This document shows positions 1,475 through 21,137 of a stretch of 21,137 bases of DNA, in pieces. Origin of the DNA: a virus. The translations under genes and the position numbers were made by a program. The notes beneath the pieces are model-generated. The model worked only from the letters and a program-made list of their open reading frames with translations. It made no database searches and was not told the DNA's origin. The stretch lies in IMG/VR virus record IMGVR_UViG_3300020162_000365, positions 1 to 21,137 of that record. One strand, 5' to 3'. Position 1 is the stretch's first letter. Each line of letters begins with the position of its first letter.

Positions 1475-1765
1475 TTATTCCTTTGTTTGATTCAGTATTT
1501 CTAGCCATGCTGATTCAGGCGAATTTACCACAGCAACTTGCCCTTTCCAATCATAATGCCAAATGCGTTGCTCTGGTGTTAAATTTTGCGCTGATAACGG
1601 TTTTGCTCCATCTTTTAATTCCAAAAGAATGTTTTTACCACGATAACCGCATACTAAATCGGGAAAACCTTTACCAGTAGCACTAGTAATGCTTACAGAC
1701 ACGCCTTTATCACGCAAAAATCGCACAATTTGCTTTTGATTGTCATCTATTCGGGCGATTCTCAT
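1475..1765 (-). CDS. VRR-NUC domain nuclease
   Basis: This 96-residue protein is a minimal VRR-NUC (PD-(D/E)xK) nuclease. The catalytic triad is visible: D36 in GKGFPDLV, then E49 and K51 in LLELKDG, followed by the usual LTPEQ (residues 62-66) and GQVAVV strand (75-80). Stand-alone phage VRR-NUC proteins are structure-specific nucleases, thought to process replication or recombination intermediates such as Holliday or flap structures. The length is typical for the phage form. It overlaps the small Cys protein upstream by 23 nt, and GGAT precedes the start by 8 nt. It fits an early operon that also makes the initiator and loader. The exact substrate cannot be read from sequence. Confidence 0.85.
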   Translation of the reverse strand: MRIARIDDNQKQIVRFLRDKGVSVSITSATGKGFPDLVCGYRGKNILLELKDGAKPLSAQNLTPEQRIWHYDWKGQVAVVNSPESAWLEILNQTKE

Positions 1766-1943
1766 ACCATTTTATCCTTTTTTCAATCTTTTCCTGTTCC
1801 GTTTCTAAGTACATTTGGCAGGCATGATCTTTAATTAGTGCGTAAAACGTGGTGAACTTTTCTTTCATACATCTACCCAAACCAACCTGTGCATGACTTG
1901 GGTAAGCCTTGATTGATATATGTTCACAGTTAATGCATTTCAC
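1743..1943 (-). CDS. small Cys-containing phage protein, possible zinc knuckle
   Basis: The 66-residue product begins MKCINCEH and has further Cys at about positions 25 and 42, so C3, C6, C25 and C42 could form a zinc site. The C-terminal third is a charged helix (KIEKRIKWYENR). Proteins of this plan, with an N-terminal CxxC, a Gly-x-Gly-x-C motif, a later Cys and a terminal KWxE helix, occur beside phage replication and methyltransferase genes in my memory, without assigned function. It overlaps the end of the methyltransferase by 14 nt and the nuclease start by 23 nt, which suggests translational coupling. Only a weak AAGTG-type ribosome site is seen. Confidence 0.7.
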   Translation of the reverse strand: MKCINCEHISIKAYPSHAQVGLGRCMKEKFTTFYALIKDHACQMYLETEQEKIEKRIKWYENRPNR

Positions 1944-2742
1944 TTAAAATTTTCCATGCTGTAGCGGCACATAATGGCACTTGGGCGTTTCCAATGGCTT
2001 TAAGTCTGTCCACCCTAGCGGAAACCCCATTAGCCATTCGACCCACGTTGGGTTCAAACTGCCACCAACTGCGTTCGGAAGCGTATCCAATGGATTGCCC
2101 TTCCGTTCCTGTCTGCCTGCACCGCTTTGCCCTTTGTAATCTCGCGTAGTTGGCGTAGGGAAATTCTTTACTTGCGTTGCCAATCCATCGCCACTTTTTT
2201 TGCTGATTCCCTTTTGATTGTAATTCCCATGCACTGTCGGCGTTGCCCATAAATTTTGAAACAATCCATATTCTGTCGCGCTTATGGTTTGCGCCGATGT
2301 CGGCAGCAGATATAACCCCCCACCGACTGTCATACCCCATTGCGGTAAGGTCTGCAAGGATTCGTTCAAGTCCTCTAGTAACGAGCATTGGACTGTTCTC
2401 CACAAATGTGAATCGCGGTCTAACTTCCCCAATAATACGCGACATTTCTCGCCACATTCCTGATCTTTCTCCTTCAAGACCATCGCCGTTCCCTGCGACT
2501 GATATATCTTGGCATGGAAACCCGCCAGATATAACGTCAACAATTCCTCGCCATTTTGTTGCATCAAAGGTTTGTACGTCATCCCAAATCGGGAAAGGCG
2601 CGAGTAATCCATCATTTTGTCGGGCGCACAATATGCTTGCTGGGTATGCTTCCCACTCAACGGCGCAGATTGTTCGCCATCCGAGTAATTTTCCCCCAAG
2701 TATTCCGCCACCAATGCCTGCGAATAGAGCCAACTCATTCAT
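1930..2742 (-). CDS. dcm: DNA (cytosine-5)-methyltransferase
   Basis: This 270-residue enzyme should transfer methyl groups from S-adenosylmethionine to C5 of cytosine. The family motifs appear in order: FAGIGG (7-12, SAM binding), GGFPCQ (73-78, catalytic C77), ENSP (115-118, motif VI), KRDRIWIV (154-161, motif VIII) and AIGNAQVP (249-256, motif X). The stretch ENSPML..RGL is usual for the phage branch, so the S in motif VI is not a defect. The target-recognition part is short (about 165-235), as in small phage enzymes. Its likely role is protection of phage DNA from host restriction; no partner restriction gene is seen. AAGGA lies 8 nt before the ATG. Almost the whole gene is overlapped by a second open frame in +1. 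Confidence 0.93.
   Translation of the reverse strand: MNELALFAGIGGGILGGKLLGWRTICAVEWEAYPASILCARQNDGLLAPFPIWDDVQTFDATKWRGIVDVISGGFPCQDISVAGNGDGLEGERSGMWREMSRIIGEVRPRFTFVENSPMLVTRGLERILADLTAMGYDSRWGVISAADIGANHKRDRIWIVSKFMGNADSAWELQSKGNQQKKWRWIGNASKEFPYANYARLQRAKRCRQTGTEGQSIGYASERSWWQFEPNVGRMANGVSARVDRLKAIGNAQVPLCAATAWKILSEMH
1944..2738 (-). CDS. overlapping-frame protein nested in the methyltransferase gene
   Basis: This 264-codon frame lies wholly inside the methyltransferase gene in the +1 frame. Its ATG is 4 nt downstream of the methyltransferase ATG (shared string ATGAATG), and AAGGG sits 7 nt upstream of it. The protein looks ordered: SRLSRFGMTYKPL (46-58), CSLLEDLNESLQTLPQWG (118-135), two ATPT/PTPT-type motifs (LWATPTVHGNY at 163-173, FPTPTTRDYKG at 193-203) and NPTWVEWLMGFPLGW (229-243). 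I believe I have seen this motif set in uncharacterised phage proteins beside or overlapping such methyltransferases, but cannot verify that here. No known catalytic site is recognised. A modifier or partner of the methyltransferase is inference. It could be a non-expressed frame, though its length and motif density argue against that. Confidence 0.65.
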   Translation of the reverse strand: MSWLYSQALVAEYLGENYSDGEQSAPLSGKHTQQAYCAPDKMMDYSRLSRFGMTYKPLMQQNGEELLTLYLAGFHAKIYQSQGTAMVLKEKDQECGEKCRVLLGKLDRDSHLWRTVQCSLLEDLNESLQTLPQWGMTVGGGLYLLPTSAQTISATEYGLFQNLWATPTVHGNYNQKGISKKSGDGLATQVKNFPTPTTRDYKGQSGAGRQERKGNPLDTLPNAVGGSLNPTWVEWLMGFPLGWTDLKPLETPKCHYVPLQHGKF

Positions 2743-2753
2743 AAGCCCTTTCC

Positions 2754-3443
2754 TTAATAATCTTTAGCGGCAAGCGCATCCTTTGCCATGCTTAACTGAA
2801 TGTGTGTCAATGTCTTATCGCCATCTTTATGCCGTTGCATTATCTTTTTAGCCCATAGTTTGTGGTCTGTTTTAGATTCCTGCTTTTTGATTATCTGCGT
2901 TTCTGCCAGATACTTGTCGGCAACATCCTTTGTCGCTTGCGTAACGGGCGCAGGTAGGGCAATCTGCGCTTTGGGTATATCAGACCATTGACCCTTGTTT
3001 ATTTCCTCGTCTAATGCCCTTTCCCATCGTGATTTGATGTTGCTATACGTCTGGTTCTTTAAATCAAACGCGCCAACCTTAACCGATGCCCAAAATATAG
3101 CCGGATGTGACCATTCGCCCATTTCACCTTTGTCACGCGCCACTACACCGTTCACTGCTTCATAGTAAGCAGCAACCGAATCAATCTTAATGCGGCATAA
3201 GTTTATAAATTGCGGCAATGTTGGGCAATACTCTTGGTTGACCAGTGAATTTGCACCTTTAACAATTTCATCACGCGATAGTTTAGATAGTTCCTGTGTC
3301 CATACTGCTTTTACCTGATTCAAATCTGAATCGCCCCACATCAATCTAAACTTATTGCCGTAAAAATTAGCCATCTTTATGAATAAGGCATCAATCCATG
3401 ATGTAGGGATTTGATTAGTCTGCATTGATTGTATATTGCTCAT
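2754..3443 (-). CDS. replication protein P-like helicase loader
   Basis: The 229-residue protein resembles lambda P and relatives, which recruit the host DnaB helicase to the initiator at the phage origin. The recognisable block is the segment with FYGNKFRLMWGD followed by WTQELSKLSRDEIVKGANSL and CPTLPQFINLCR (about residues 28-85). The C-terminal part is helical, Lys-rich and variable, as usual. The start at 3443 has AAGGG 8 nt upstream and overlaps the initiator gene by 29 nt, the same O-P order as in lambdoid phages. The methyltransferase follows 11 nt downstream. The alternative role, a generic phage replication protein with another helicase partner, cannot be excluded. Confidence 0.75.
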   Translation of the reverse strand: MSNIQSMQTNQIPTSWIDALFIKMANFYGNKFRLMWGDSDLNQVKAVWTQELSKLSRDEIVKGANSLVNQEYCPTLPQFINLCRIKIDSVAAYYEAVNGVVARDKGEMGEWSHPAIFWASVKVGAFDLKNQTYSNIKSRWERALDEEINKGQWSDIPKAQIALPAPVTQATKDVADKYLAETQIIKKQESKTDHKLWAKKIMQRHKDGDKTLTHIQLSMAKDALAAKDY

Positions 3444-4272: not shown

Positions 4273-4301
4273 ATTATATCAAGCGACCACGACTATACCA
4301 A
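4273..4301 (-). promoter_or_regulatory. sigma70-type promoter for the replication genes
   Basis: On the minus strand TTGGTA (4301-4296) is followed after 17 nt by a perfect TATAAT (4278-4273). TG stands one base before the -10, an extended -10 element. It overlaps the end of the DUF1364 gene and points at the initiator gene, so replication genes can be expressed apart from the upstream regulators. Confidence 0.6.
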
Positions 4302-4578
4302 GCATAAACATAGCAAGCAAAGTACGTTCAAACCCTTGCTGCCAATAATATAACTTATCTTCTTTGCTCATATTGCCTTGATCTATTGTGGCATGACAGG
4401 CACTACAAGCCCATGCAATATAACAATCATGAGCTTTTAAACTTGTGCCTTTCCCATGTATCAATTGATTAGAATGAGCCGCCACTGTAGTGTCATTATC
4501 GCCATTACATATATAAGGAATTCTTACCATACAGGATTGCCCTTGTGCCGCTTTTAAAAGCCTTTTACTTCGATACAT
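4279..4578 (-). CDS. DUF1364 (YbcO-like) putative nuclease
   Basis: From ATG 4578 the product is 99 residues. The DUF1364 pattern is clear: RLLKAAQGQSCMVRIP (about 6-21), CNG (24-26), TTVAAHSN, then HDCYIAWACSACHATID (about 49-65) with the CxxCH pair. YbcO-type proteins of lambdoid phages have an HNH-related zinc fold and are listed as putative nucleases in the nin/replication region. The position beside O/P-like genes fits. The frame is open upstream to 4731, but that part does not match the family. The chosen start overlaps the HTH gene by 14 nt and lacks a good Shine-Dalgarno sequence, so coupling to the upstream gene is likely. The hydrophobic tail (LLAMFMLGIVVVA) is slightly unusual. Confidence 0.75.
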   Translation of the reverse strand: MYRSKRLLKAAQGQSCMVRIPYICNGDNDTTVAAHSNQLIHGKGTSLKAHDCYIAWACSACHATIDQGNMSKEDKLYYWQQGFERTLLAMFMLGIVVVA

Positions 4579-4798
4579 TGGCACGAATAAACCCCGCAAT
4601 TGTTCTATCGTGCTGATCTTCAAGCAGTGATTCCATCTTGATTGCACCATTACTACCAAACTCGATTGCGGCAGCACTAGCAAACGTAATTTTCTTTTTG
4701 CCAGTACGCAGGCGTGATATTTCAGGCGCACTTATGCCTGATTTGTTTGCCAATCGTTTTGCTGCGCCATGCTGTTTAAGAAATTCATTTAAATCCAT
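4565..4798 (-). CDS. Cro/YdaS-like helix-turn-helix regulator
   Basis: From ATG 4798 the product is 77 residues, the size of Cro or YdaS-type phage regulators. The helix-turn-helix is at about 10-40: HGAAKRLANKSGISAPEISRL followed by a basic RTGKKK. The next helix (SAAAIEFGSNGAI) matches the YdaS/Cro pattern. It should bind operator DNA, probably in the divergent region at 5157-5350 or near the replication promoter. The start has AAGGGG 8 nt upstream; the longer frame to 4837 lacks this. It overlaps the winged-helix gene by 14 nt and the DUF1364 gene by 14 nt. YdaS proteins can also act as antitoxin-like regulators, but no toxin gene is seen beside it. Confidence 0.75.
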   Translation of the reverse strand: MDLNEFLKQHGAAKRLANKSGISAPEISRLRTGKKKITFASAAAIEFGSNGAIKMESLLEDQHDRTIAGFIRANVSK

Positions 4799-5156
4799 TT
4801 TCGTAACCCCTTTTGTTTCTAAAAAGTTTAGCTTCATAACCCTTCATTTCAGGCGTAAAAACATTCCTGTAAGCAGGTTGCACCACGTCTTTAGGTTTGT
4901 AATTTCCTTCCATCTTTAGCACCGAATCAATGTGTCCTGCAACATCAGATGTGACCTTGTATTTCTCACCTACCATGTATAAATAACCATGATCTAGCGC
5001 ATTTGTGAAGAATTTATTCATTTCTGCTGTGCTATTTCTGCTGCTTATATTGCCAATTTCTGCAATCACATCGGCATAAGTTGCACCGCCTAATTCGTAA
5101 ATGCATTCCAATAATGTAAACATTTTCATGCTTCTGCGAGGCATTATTCTTGACAT
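4785..5156 (-). CDS. small winged-helix-like protein, first gene of the leftward operon
   Basis: The 123-residue product begins with a basic stretch (MPRRSMKMF) and a helical block, TLLECIYELGGATYADVIAEI, then a second helix and a short beta-hairpin-like segment (GYLYMVGEKYKVT), which together read as a winged helix-turn-helix (about 10-75). The C-terminal 45 residues are basic and likely disordered. I do not recognise the exact family. A DNA-binding regulator, in the place where lambda has cro or cII, is inference from fold and position. The start has AAAGGA 6 nt upstream. It is transcribed from the leftward promoter at 5197-5226 with a leader of about 34 nt. Confidence 0.6.
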   Translation of the reverse strand: MSRIMPRRSMKMFTLLECIYELGGATYADVIAEIGNISSRNSTAEMNKFFTNALDHGYLYMVGEKYKVTSDVAGHIDSVLKMEGNYKPKDVVQPAYRNVFTPEMKGYEAKLFRNKRGYENGFK

Positions 5157-12374: not shown

Positions 12375-15359
12375 TTACATATTGAATGTGTTTAGACGCA
12401 CAAAGCCAACAGGAATTGTCCCAATAAATGGTTGCTGTCCAAAATTAATAGCATATTGACTAGCAGAAGCACCTGTTGCACCTACAGCAGGAAATTTTAA
12501 ACCAGATAATCCAGTAATAATACCTTGACTTGCACCATTTTTATAAAATGTAATGCTGCCTGCATCGGCATCATAAGCAACACCAATAACATCGTTAGTT
12601 GTATATGTAGCACCATAGGCAGAAGCAACATTATTAGTATATTTTTGCCCTGTGCTGCTTAAGTATGACAATTCGCCTGCCGCGCCGCCTAAACCTGTTG
12701 TTGCGCTTGGTGCTGAACCATCTCCAACACCTACAACAGCAGCAGAACCTACAGCAATAATTGTAACTTCCCAATAAAATTTTCCGGATGTTATGCCAAA
12801 TGTTGCAAGTGGTTTTCCATAAGTTGTGGCAAATACAGTTGATGTAGCAAGATTTGCATTGCTATATGTAGTTGTCCCACCCGCTATTACTAAAGGGTTA
12901 AATACAGGATAGTTTGCCGCAGTTTCACTAGTCAATGTAGGAACGTCTGTCATTGAATCATAGTTAACACTTGTTGTTGGTGTTAGCGTAAAGCCGTTAG
13001 CAGTCCAATTGTTTTGGTTAGGACTAAAATCGTATCCAATGGTTGTGCTGCTTGCATTGTTTGTAAACGGTAAATAAAAACCATTTGTTCCGTAGCTGCC
13101 TAAATATTGCGTTGGTTGCCATACACCAAATGAATTGTATCCACCGAATGATGATGGTGTTAATGCTTGACCATTGACAAAATTAATTTCTGTCATATAG
13201 CCATCAAAATAATATCCGTAAGATGATTGCCCTGAACCTATGTAATGTGCAGTAGTATTGTTAATCCATCCGTCTGCATTTTGGCTTATATATGTAGCAC
13301 TAACATTGCTAGTAGTGGCAGATTGCAAAACTCCATTTACATACATCTTACACATATTGGCAACAGCCGCTTGGGTTGTGTCAAATGCAATCACAATATG
13401 ATACCAAGCAGCAGGGTCACGAAATACTGCGTTTGTTGACCAAAGTGTTTTTATACCTGCACTTAATTCAATGTAGGTAACTAAATTGTCATTGGTAGTA
13501 AAATAAAAATAATGAAGCCCGCCTGTTGTATTAAAGTTTGCAGCAAATAAACCGTGTGTAACACCTAACGCACCACGCTTAACCCAACCAGACCATGTCC
13601 ATGTTTTGCGATTGCCTGCAACAGTAGGGGTTCTTGTTAAACTAGAACTTGTGCTTGATTTAAAACGCAATGAATTATTAACTAATTTTAATGCGCTTAA
13701 ATATCCACTTGATGTAAATGTGTGAATGGTATTGCCGCCAACAAATGTAACAGTACCGCCTGCCATACGTTGTGCGCCTGCATAACTAATAATTACTATG
13801 CCGCTACCGCCTGCACCGCCTGCGTATGCAGCACCAGAACCGCCCGCACCACCGCCACCGCCGCCACCTAAACCTGCTGTGCCTGCTGTACCTGCTGCTG
13901 CGCTACCGCCACCACCACCGCCGCCAGTACCACCTGCACCTGCGCCACCTGTTTCTACGTTATAACGACCACCACCACCACCGCCCGCATAAATAACGGA
14001 TGCACCTGATAAAGATGATGCAGAGCCATTACCACCATTACCAAGTGCTACTGGTGAAACATTTGATGATGTACCTGCTGTGGATGCGCCACCACCACCT
14101 GAACCTGATGAACCTGTGATTGATTGTGCGCCTGCATTACCTTGCCCTGCAACACCTGTACCTGCGCCCGCTTTATAACCGCCACCGCCTGAACCACCGT
14201 TCAAACCTGTGTAAGTAGAATTACCGCCGCCACCACCGCCTGTTGATGTGACTATAGAACTAATATTAGATGTGCCGCCATTAGTGCCTTGAATGCCAAC
14301 AGTACCAGAACCGCCTGCACCTACTGTAATTATGTAGTTTGAATTTGTATCAAACGTTAAACCTGTGCCGCTTACAATACCGCCCGCACCCCCGCCACCG
14401 CCACCTGAACCAGTAACTATGCCACCACCGCCTGCACCGCCGCCCGCTACTAATAAATAATTTGCCGTAAAAGTAGTAGCAGGAACTAATGTGCCGGATG
14501 TAGTAAATGTATGAATCCAGTTGCCACCAGAATAAGTGACAGTACCACCACCAAATAATTGTGTAGGTGATGCGTATGAAACTATAACTACGCCCGAACC
14601 GCCGCCCGCACCGTTGAATGTTGAAACGTCAGCACCACCGCCGCCACCCCCGCCTAAATTAGCAATGCCAGAAACTGGCGCAGTAGAACTTGCTAGACCA
14701 CCCGCACCCCCGCCCCCGTTGCCGCCAAGACCCCGCGTTGTTCCAAATCCACCACCCCCGCCGCCGCCTGCATAAGTTACAGAAGAACCTGATATAGATG
14801 ATGCCGTACCATTGCCGCCTGAGCCTGTAGCACCAGTAGTTCCGCTACCACCTACGGCTGAAGAACCGCCACCGCCGCCTGCTGAACGATAAGTAGTGCT
14901 GTTTGTTATACCACTACCGCCATTATTACCTTGACCACTTGTGCCAGTACCGCCTGCGGTAGTTACAGTGCCGCCTGTTGCATTTGCTGCGCCACCGCCT
15001 GCTGAACCACCATCACCACCAATTGCGTTTGCACTAGATACATCAGGAGAAGAACCACCGCCGCCACCGCCAATTGCAGTTGCAAATGAACTAAATATAG
15101 AATTTGAACCTTGACTTCCTCTTAATGCATTAGATGATGAACCAGTGCCGCCTGCACCAACAGTTACAACATAATTTTGAGTAAAATTTAAACTTGTAAT
15201 ACCAAGAAGTAAACCGCCCGCACCCCCGCCACCGCCATAACCATCGCCGCCACCGCCACCGCCTGCTACAACAAGATAATTTGCAGTGATAGTAGATGTG
15301 CCTTGCGTATAACCAAAGGCAGCAAGGCAGGCAGCACCAATTTTAGATAGACGAGGCAT
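12375..15359 (-). CDS. giant tail adhesin: two glycine-rich modules, LamG-like and SPRY domains
   Basis: This 994-residue protein is modular. Two glycine-rich domains follow each other (about 25-295 and 296-555); each opens with TANYL(V/L)VAGGG and closes with SG(V/I)VI(V/I)SYA and IHTFT-SG. Next comes a LamG/concanavalin-like lectin domain (about 560-750, with WTWSGWVKRG, WYHIVIAFDT, MYVNGVLQ, YFDGYMTEINFVNG), then a SPRY-like domain (about 855-985, FYWEVTI, GVGDGS, IGVAYDADAGSITFYKNG). Polyglycine sandwich tips in phage adhesins bind host receptors, so this is a likely receptor-binding protein. The coding strand is a run of GGN codons, giving a strongly biased low-complexity DNA tract. AGGAT precedes the ATG. 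Confidence 0.8.
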   Translation of the reverse strand: MPRLSKIGAACLAAFGYTQGTSTITANYLVVAGGGGGGDGYGGGGGAGGLLLGITSLNFTQNYVVTVGAGGTGSSSNALRGSQGSNSIFSSFATAIGGGGGGSSPDVSSANAIGGDGGSAGGGAANATGGTVTTAGGTGTSGQGNNGGSGITNSTTYRSAGGGGGSSAVGGSGTTGATGSGGNGTASSISGSSVTYAGGGGGGGFGTTRGLGGNGGGGAGGLASSTAPVSGIANLGGGGGGGADVSTFNGAGGGSGVVIVSYASPTQLFGGGTVTYSGGNWIHTFTTSGTLVPATTFTANYLLVAGGGAGGGGIVTGSGGGGGGAGGIVSGTGLTFDTNSNYIITVGAGGSGTVGIQGTNGGTSNISSIVTSTGGGGGGNSTYTGLNGGSGGGGYKAGAGTGVAGQGNAGAQSITGSSGSGGGGASTAGTSSNVSPVALGNGGNGSASSLSGASVIYAGGGGGGRYNVETGGAGAGGTGGGGGGGSAAAGTAGTAGLGGGGGGGAGGSGAAYAGGAGGSGIVIISYAGAQRMAGGTVTFVGGNTIHTFTSSGYLSALKLVNNSLRFKSSTSSSLTRTPTVAGNRKTWTWSGWVKRGALGVTHGLFAANFNTTGGLHYFYFTTNDNLVTYIELSAGIKTLWSTNAVFRDPAAWYHIVIAFDTTQAAVANMCKMYVNGVLQSATTSNVSATYISQNADGWINNTTAHYIGSGQSSYGYYFDGYMTEINFVNGQALTPSSFGGYNSFGVWQPTQYLGSYGTNGFYLPFTNNASSTTIGYDFSPNQNNWTANGFTLTPTTSVNYDSMTDVPTLTSETAANYPVFNPLVIAGGTTTYSNANLATSTVFATTYGKPLATFGITSGKFYWEVTIIAVGSAAVVGVGDGSAPSATTGLGGAAGELSYLSSTGQKYTNNVASAYGATYTTNDVIGVAYDADAGSITFYKNGASQGIITGLSGLKFPAVGATGASASQYAINFGQQPFIGTIPVGFVRLNTFNM

Positions 15360-20729: not shown

Positions 20730-21137
20730 TTACCAAGAAATTGTACCTGTTCCTGCGGTAAATATATAAGTTTTATATCCTGCTCTAATTGCAGTGTTTG
20801 GCGTTGTATTGCCTGTGCTGCCATTGCAAGTAAGAGTCGCAGCTACACTTGCTAAATTATTAAAAGTATCAGGATAAGAAACAATAACAATGCCTGAACC
20901 GCCTGCACCTACTGTTCCAACATTTGTACCTGAACCGCCACCGCCTGAACCTGTGTTTGCGCCTGCGGAAGTAGCATTAGCATTGCCTATTGAACCATTG
21001 CCACCAATACTTGAACCGCCTGTGCCTGCGGTAACTACGGCAGGCGATGCGCCTGTAAAAATACCACCGCCACCGCCTGCGGCATAAGTCACGCTGTTTA
21101 TTGCAGATGTAGAACCTGAACCGCCGTTGCCGCCTGC
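20730..21137 (-). CDS. glycine-rich tail protein, 5' end beyond the window
   Basis: The frame is open to the right edge, so only the C-terminal 135 or so residues are seen. The GTG at 21092 is an internal Val, because the same glycine-rich pattern continues upstream of it without a stop. The visible part has runs of GGN codons (YAAGGGGGIF, GSGGGGSGT) and closes with GAGGSGIVIVSYPDTF, the same closing strand as both glycine-rich modules of the large adhesin at 12375-15359. It then adds a short beta tail (CNGSTGN to TAGTGTISW). It lies just before the tail hub genes, where a tape measure protein would often be. Likely another adhesin or fibre. Confidence 0.7.
   Translation of the reverse strand, partial: AGGNGGSGSTSAINSVTYAAGGGGGIFTGASPAVVTAGTGGSSIGGNGSIGNANATSAGANTGSGGGGSGTNVGTVGAGGSGIVIVSYPDTFNNLASVAATLTCNGSTGNTTPNTAIRAGYKTYIFTAGTGTISW

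Follow-up and report, generated by a model that had tools for sequence, protein, structure and literature searches.

Why should a phage gene for a cytosine methyltransferase be readable, almost from end to end, in a second frame? The question is posed by one locus of a 21 kb virus record (IMG/VR record IMGVR_UViG_3300020162_000365, positions 1 to 21,137; we refer to this whole 21,137-nt stretch of DNA as the window), where an earlier note had described two full-length proteins in overlapping frames. Both open reading frames are there, as are the motifs WATPT, FPTPT and LNPTWVEWLMGFPLGWTDLKPLE quoted from the second, and the openness of that second frame lies far beyond chance. From the distribution of motifs, we consider it very probable that the locus encodes one two-subunit C5-cytosine methyltransferase of the M.EcoHK31I type, made from two almost completely overlapping and separately initiated frames, here called alpha and beta:

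1930..2742, minus strand: putative alpha subunit gene, C5-cytosine DNA methyltransferase of 270 aa with motifs I-VIII and X, without motif IX
1944..2738, minus strand: putative beta subunit gene of 264 aa, read +1 relative to alpha, with motif IX and a probable target-recognition region
2746..2755, minus strand: Shine-Dalgarno-like sequence AAGGAAAGGG, directly before both start codons

The beta frame lies entirely inside alpha and starts 4 nt after it (ATGAATGAG), with the alpha ATG at 2740-2742 and the beta ATG at 2736-2738. At the other end, a small cysteine-containing ORF (1743-1943, minus strand; MKCINCEH) begins with a GTG inside the methyltransferase gene, whose last 14 nt it shares.

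Taken by itself, alpha looks like a methyltransferase with a part missing. It carries the motifs that define C5-cytosine DNA methyltransferases (I, IV with PCQ, VI with EN, VIII and X), and GFPC, EN, RxR and GN..VP are invariant in the alpha alignment A2. Two of these elements can be placed as follows:

2509..2517, minus strand: alpha motif IV with the catalytic PCQ (GGFPCQDIS); GFPC invariant and Q nearly so in alignment A2
1975..1992, minus strand: core of alpha motif X, GNAQVP; GN..VP invariant in alignment A2

Alpha matches phrog_363 (6e-66) and PF00145 (2e-31), the latter over residues 4-167 only, corresponding to profile positions 4-165 of 324 and thus to motifs I-VIII. Its AlphaFold model shows a catalytic domain at residues 1-165 with pLDDT mostly >90, a stretch at 180-240 predicted to be disordered (pLDDT about 43-50), and motif X helices at 243-268 (pLDDT about 87); the best Foldseek matches are M.HhaI (1.7e-14) and M.HaeIII. 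A beta motif-IX HMM gave no meaningful score anywhere in alpha (-5 bits), and alpha does not carry the target-recognition domain (TRD) and motif IX that a single-chain C5 methyltransferase has on its catalytic polypeptide. Profile matches and model thus agree in placing no small domain, motif IX included, on alpha.

Could the second frame be open simply because alpha is conserved? We collected 80 viral loci using alpha peptide patterns alone, a procedure with no bias to any synonymous codon, and reduced them, together with the window, to a non-redundant set of 54 sequences (the window and 53 loci). The beta frame is carried by all 80 loci; an internal stop occurs in one (L049) and the frame is open in the other 79, bearing out the openness among homologues that the earlier claim of overprinting implied. 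There are no internal stops in the 54 non-redundant sequences, whereas synonymous reshuffling of alpha in the same sequences predicts between 5.8 (own codon usage) and 8.5 (flanking-gene usage) per gene. When the synonymous codons of the window's alpha were shuffled in 300 trials with two codon tables, the second frame was never open, with 6.5-8.9 stops expected, and in five flanking control gene families the +1 frame averages 6-24 stops and is open in none. A passive echo of methyltransferase conservation would account for part of the similarity in the second frame, since a beta identity of about 0.32 is expected from selection on alpha alone (0.321), but 0.555 is observed. Stop counts, identity excess and the normal behavior of the flanking controls together refute this explanation, which we regard as hardly credible; chance and passive conservation do not explain the beta frame.

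The pattern of substitutions indicates what is being conserved instead. The wobble base of each alpha codon falls at the second position of a beta codon, so that a change silent in one protein can alter the other. Many loci were found via the pattern WVEWLMGF, which biases codon statistics computed over all loci, and the main tests were therefore rerun on the loci that methyltransferase patterns alone had retrieved. In this unbiased set, the wobble positions of alpha codons 229-250 are almost frozen (same-codon frequency 0.92 and 0.86 in two windows over 229-252, against 0.37-0.38 expected), a pattern absent from the flanking controls; this is the synonymous constraint that the earlier note had proposed looking for. 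N252, V255 and P256 of GNAQVP are equally conserved in the alpha protein and show far more wobble variation (AAC/AAT 59/49 at N252, all loci). Variants silent in alpha that change beta vanish (all loci: V233 GTG 95/95, V236 GTG 102/102, G239 GGG 108/108), and these three codons have a same-codon frequency of 1.0 in the unbiased set as well. Doubly silent changes persist (CGA 27/AGA 26 at R235, with R243 likewise varying): the first positions of arginine codons, often silent in both frames, are free to vary. Across the whole gene, arginine codons differ at the third position in 23% of comparisons and at the first in 34%, while arginine third positions in the control families differ in 52-75%, some of these families contributing few pairs.

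Could such a frozen block be a DNA or RNA element in the methyltransferase gene that constrains synonymous sites, with beta left untranslated? The compactness of the block would suit such an element, but doubly silent changes are common within it, at R235 and R243, the entire frame is open far beyond it, and both the start codon and the Shine-Dalgarno sequence of beta are conserved, making this explanation highly improbable. Across 12 close pairs, doubly silent differences are enriched nine-fold over the neutral expectation and differences altering both proteins are depleted six-fold, yielding an omega of 0.20 (0.14-0.29) for beta and 0.13 (0.09-0.20) for alpha. By thirds, the values are 0.41, 0.14 and 0.04 for beta and 0.03, 0.08 and 0.29 for alpha, figures that are rough because no more than 30 doubly silent changes underlie the ratios. 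Purifying selection acts on both frames, most tightly on the 5' part of alpha and the 3' part of beta. The earlier claim that one stretch of DNA is under selection in two frames is thus upheld by both omega values, each below 1, and by the excess of beta identity.

If both proteins are selected, how is the second one made? The beta ATG at +4 is kept in 54/54 sequences, whereas codon 1 of alpha is ATG in only 26/54; in 17/54 it is an unusable TTA, CTT or CTA, and the alpha start is there necessarily further upstream. A Shine-Dalgarno core precedes the beta ATG in 41 of 51 relatives. In the CTT class the order of the starts is mostly reversed, beta possibly starting at ATGTCATGG, five bases before the alpha ATG, with its MSW N-terminus kept. 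In distant relatives with a later opening of the beta frame, a Shine-Dalgarno core accompanies the first beta ATG in 24/46 cases, compared with 82/527 for other nearby ATGs. A programmed frameshift would offer another route, in which translation starts on alpha, slips by +1 after motif VIII and produces a single chain ending in the beta C-terminus. This would explain why beta is always in the +1 frame of alpha and why split annotated genes, such as Samy gp49/gp50, stand in the same relation. However, an ATG belonging to beta itself is conserved at or before the start of alpha, in most cases behind a Shine-Dalgarno core; the N-terminal third of beta is open and selected (omega 0.41), which a late shift does not need; and a single shift would drop motif X of alpha, which is invariant. 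We therefore consider a frameshift unlikely and favor two separately initiated subunits.

What, then, is beta? Three regions of the frame stand out:

2298..2426, minus strand: conserved block KLDRDSHLWRTVQCSLLEDL..LPQWGMTVGGGLYLLPT of beta, over alpha motifs VI-VIII, from an alignment of distant relatives
2148..2249, minus strand: WATPT...FPTPT region of beta, with P and T nearly invariant in alignment A1; probable target-recognition part
2001..2057, minus strand: putative beta motif IX, LNPTWVEWLMGFPLGWTDL, the same bases reading GRMANGVSARVDRLKA in alpha; N, E, W, L, M and G invariant in A1, in part an effect of the pattern by which many of its members were retrieved; alpha wobble positions almost frozen over this stretch in the unbiased set

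In the block over motifs VI-VIII, beta-frame identity exceeds expectation, and the C-terminal LNPTWVEWLMGFPLGWTDL is the most conserved part of the beta family. Beta matches phrog_1008 (5.1e-23, residues 44-220), as do all 75 members of the beta alignment A1, and also phrog_26627 (3e-14). The earlier note had linked this motif set to uncharacterised phage proteins near such methyltransferases; the association is real, more exactly with the second frame lying on top of them, in +1, and "uncharacterised" requires correction, given the two PHROGs families (5e-23 and 3e-14) and the fact that some phage annotators have called beta as a gene.

The most informative relatives are single chains. OldBen68 and Darolandstone38 run in one frame from motifs I-VIII through FxEWMMGxPxGW/H to GNGVxPQQ (motif X). 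OldBen68 has PTPT repeats between motifs VIII and IX, then EWMMGWPAGW, then motif X, and it matches the whole-beta profile at 5.9e-12. Split Samy gp50 aligns weakly to PF00145 positions 270-322 (E 0.2), and in two canonical methyltransferases the best match to the beta-motif profile is their motif IX (VERIMDFPDDWTD, LNGFRDNWTN), at marginal scores (7.5 bits in Haladaptatus and 1.1 in Paraclostridium, where the best shuffled sequence reached 5.2). Sequence searches of the PDB with the whole-beta profile and with a motif-IX-only profile returned no C5-methyltransferase, and the AlphaFold model of beta is weak (pLDDT 58), its fold search yielding no match. Because the annotated gene is without motif IX, we read beta as most likely the missing half of the methyltransferase, contributing motif IX and a probable target-recognition region.

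One might instead take beta for a protein with a separate role of its own, such as anti-restriction, overprinted by happenstance. No Pfam domain was found in the window's beta or in nearly all of its relatives, and the structural model is of low confidence, as one might see for such a protein. Yet its conserved end corresponds to the motif IX element of the single-chain relatives, the host gene is without exactly motif IX, and an alpha part lies beside beta at every scored locus, leaving this alternative quite unlikely. The functional guess of the earlier note was accordingly half right: beta does look like a partner of the methyltransferase, and an optional modifier of specificity or an anti-restriction factor fits poorly with a likely motif IX half.

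In the two-subunit reading, alpha would form the catalytic domain, made of motifs I-VIII with motif X closing it, and would have no small domain. Beta, initiated in the +1 frame at an ATG four bases after that of alpha, would provide that domain, in the form of the variable PTPT-rich region, probably the TRD, together with motif IX. The two chains would then assemble into one active enzyme that modifies phage DNA, most likely protecting it against host restriction, a role suggested by analogy to known phage methylases. A PHROGs search recognised no restriction partner in the flanks, where the neighbors include HNH and other nuclease matches, so the context does not constrain this role.

Judged by sequence, this doubly coded gene is met again in hundreds of phages, bacteria and archaea, and usually only one of its frames is annotated. 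A genome scan with the beta alignment returned 347 related loci, and the best 80 are spread over many bacterial phyla and include one archaeal genome. At 133 of the 134 viral and cellular loci where both could be placed, motif IX lies +1 relative to alpha; it was the motif IX pattern that retrieved these loci, so that the presence of the motif is by construction and its frame relative to alpha is free. Motif X is in the frame of alpha at 133/137 scored loci and in that of beta at four (L151, L227, L237 and L257). In the unbiased loci, I-VIII and X are in alpha and IX is in +1 in 80/80. An alpha part accompanies beta in every locus scored and a catalytic part in all but three, where it is cut short or undetected and motif X is still seen. 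Short Dcm proteins annotated on plasmids from an archaeon (L179), a Lacticaseibacillus (L180) and a Nostoc (L183) are likewise without motif IX, which lies in the +1 frame. A short Dcm on the Picosynechococcus plasmid pAQ5 (L174) has a long +1 frame with an IX-like SPEAMAMYMGFPWHL, which matches the whole-beta profile (2.2e-9) and gives no score with the motif profile; SPEAMAMYMGFPWHL is probably its motif IX.

Annotation of the family varies, with both frames called in Paenibacillus phage Leyra, beta only in Pseudomonas phage phPA-G, and alpha elsewhere. In Mycobacterium phage Llama (gp74/gp75, L164) and at one further locus (L112), the alpha and beta frames are apparently joined by an indel, and the annotated or open pieces mix both. 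The family phrog_1008 is named DNA methyltransferase yet matches the beta frame, so annotators may wrongly call that frame as the methylase itself. In open-licence papers, we found the overlap in phages nowhere described; published cases of out-of-frame HNH elements and of N4/N6 methylases were set aside.

Among known enzymes, M.EcoHK31I reportedly likewise has a small subunit encoded in another frame of the gene for its large subunit. The large subunit carries motifs I-VIII and X and a predicted TRD, and the small polypeptide carries motif IX (PMC3404938). This two-polypeptide enzyme (YGGCCR) resembles the window, at the sequence level, in having I-VIII and X on the large subunit and IX on a second polypeptide; it differs in the TRD, which in the window lies more likely in beta. 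The window is also distinguished by a beta start 4 nt after that of alpha, by near-complete overlap and by the lack of a recognised restriction gene adjoining; the likeness is one of motif distribution. Complete E. coli genomes were also searched with a Salmonella phage relative; four contained homologues, and M.EcoHK31I was not identified thereby. M.AquI is a C5-methyltransferase split after motif VIII, the small subunit comprising IX-X (PMC3404938). This second two-polypeptide enzyme (CYCGRG) shares with the window a motif IX on the small subunit but places motif X there too, whereas X is on alpha in the window, as in 80/80 close relatives; the four loci with motif X after IX in the beta frame resemble M.AquI in this respect.

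The single-chain actinophage methylases OldBen gp68 and Darolandstone gp38 share I-VIII, the IX element and X in order, and OldBen also the PTPT repeats, but consist of one chain of 540-560 aa in one frame. The families matched by alpha and beta, phrog_363 and phrog_1008, are both named DNA methyltransferase, and nothing in the PHROGs entries returned here indicates that they share the same DNA or make up a single enzyme. ShiLan offers another phage DNA methylase gene with a second frame inside it, where the out-of-frame element encodes an HNH protein (PMC11855218); that case differs in being a mobile homing-endonuclease insertion and not a methylase subunit. On a Vibrio IncC-type plasmid (L182:904-2148), a single-chain Dcm has motif X (GNAIVPA) before a C-terminal beta-like segment ending LNPVFAECMLGYPENHTRLAY; the C-terminus carries LNPVFAECMLGYPENHTRL after motif X in one chain, as expected of a circularly permuted C5-methyltransferase. 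We lean towards the view that overprinted split C5-methyltransferases, with catalytic and DNA-recognition subunits locked in one stretch of DNA, make up an old and large class, for the most part unannotated, in phages, bacteria and archaea, and that the M.EcoHK31I-like, M.AquI-like, fused and permuted methylases represent stages within one family.

To our knowledge, few long, near-complete overlaps on the same strand have both frames strongly selected, and the frames of this one seem to encode the halves of a single enzyme. In that case, hundreds of genes in phages and prophages, recorded as a short Dcm or, from the other frame, as a hypothetical protein, would be half-annotated, and specificity prediction, cloning and methylome matching from the annotated ORF alone should fail. 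The biochemical prediction is that short C5-methyltransferases without motif IX require the +1-frame product, and the family offers many natural replicates for the study of two proteins sharing one sequence.

Elsewhere in the window, on the minus strand, an HNH endonuclease gene (4282-4731, phrog_131) and a repressor-like ORF (4568-4837, phrog_35, a weak match) overlap by ~160 nt in different frames. Within a cluster of replication and nuclease genes, the minus-strand ORF at 1071-1508 matches phrog_858 (9e-22), named starvation-inducible transcriptional regulator. Two proteins very rich in glycine, with GGGG and VIVSY stretches that resemble each other, are encoded at 12375-15359 and 20730-21137, both on the minus strand; the first, of 994 aa, matches virion protein families, and the second runs past the end of the window.
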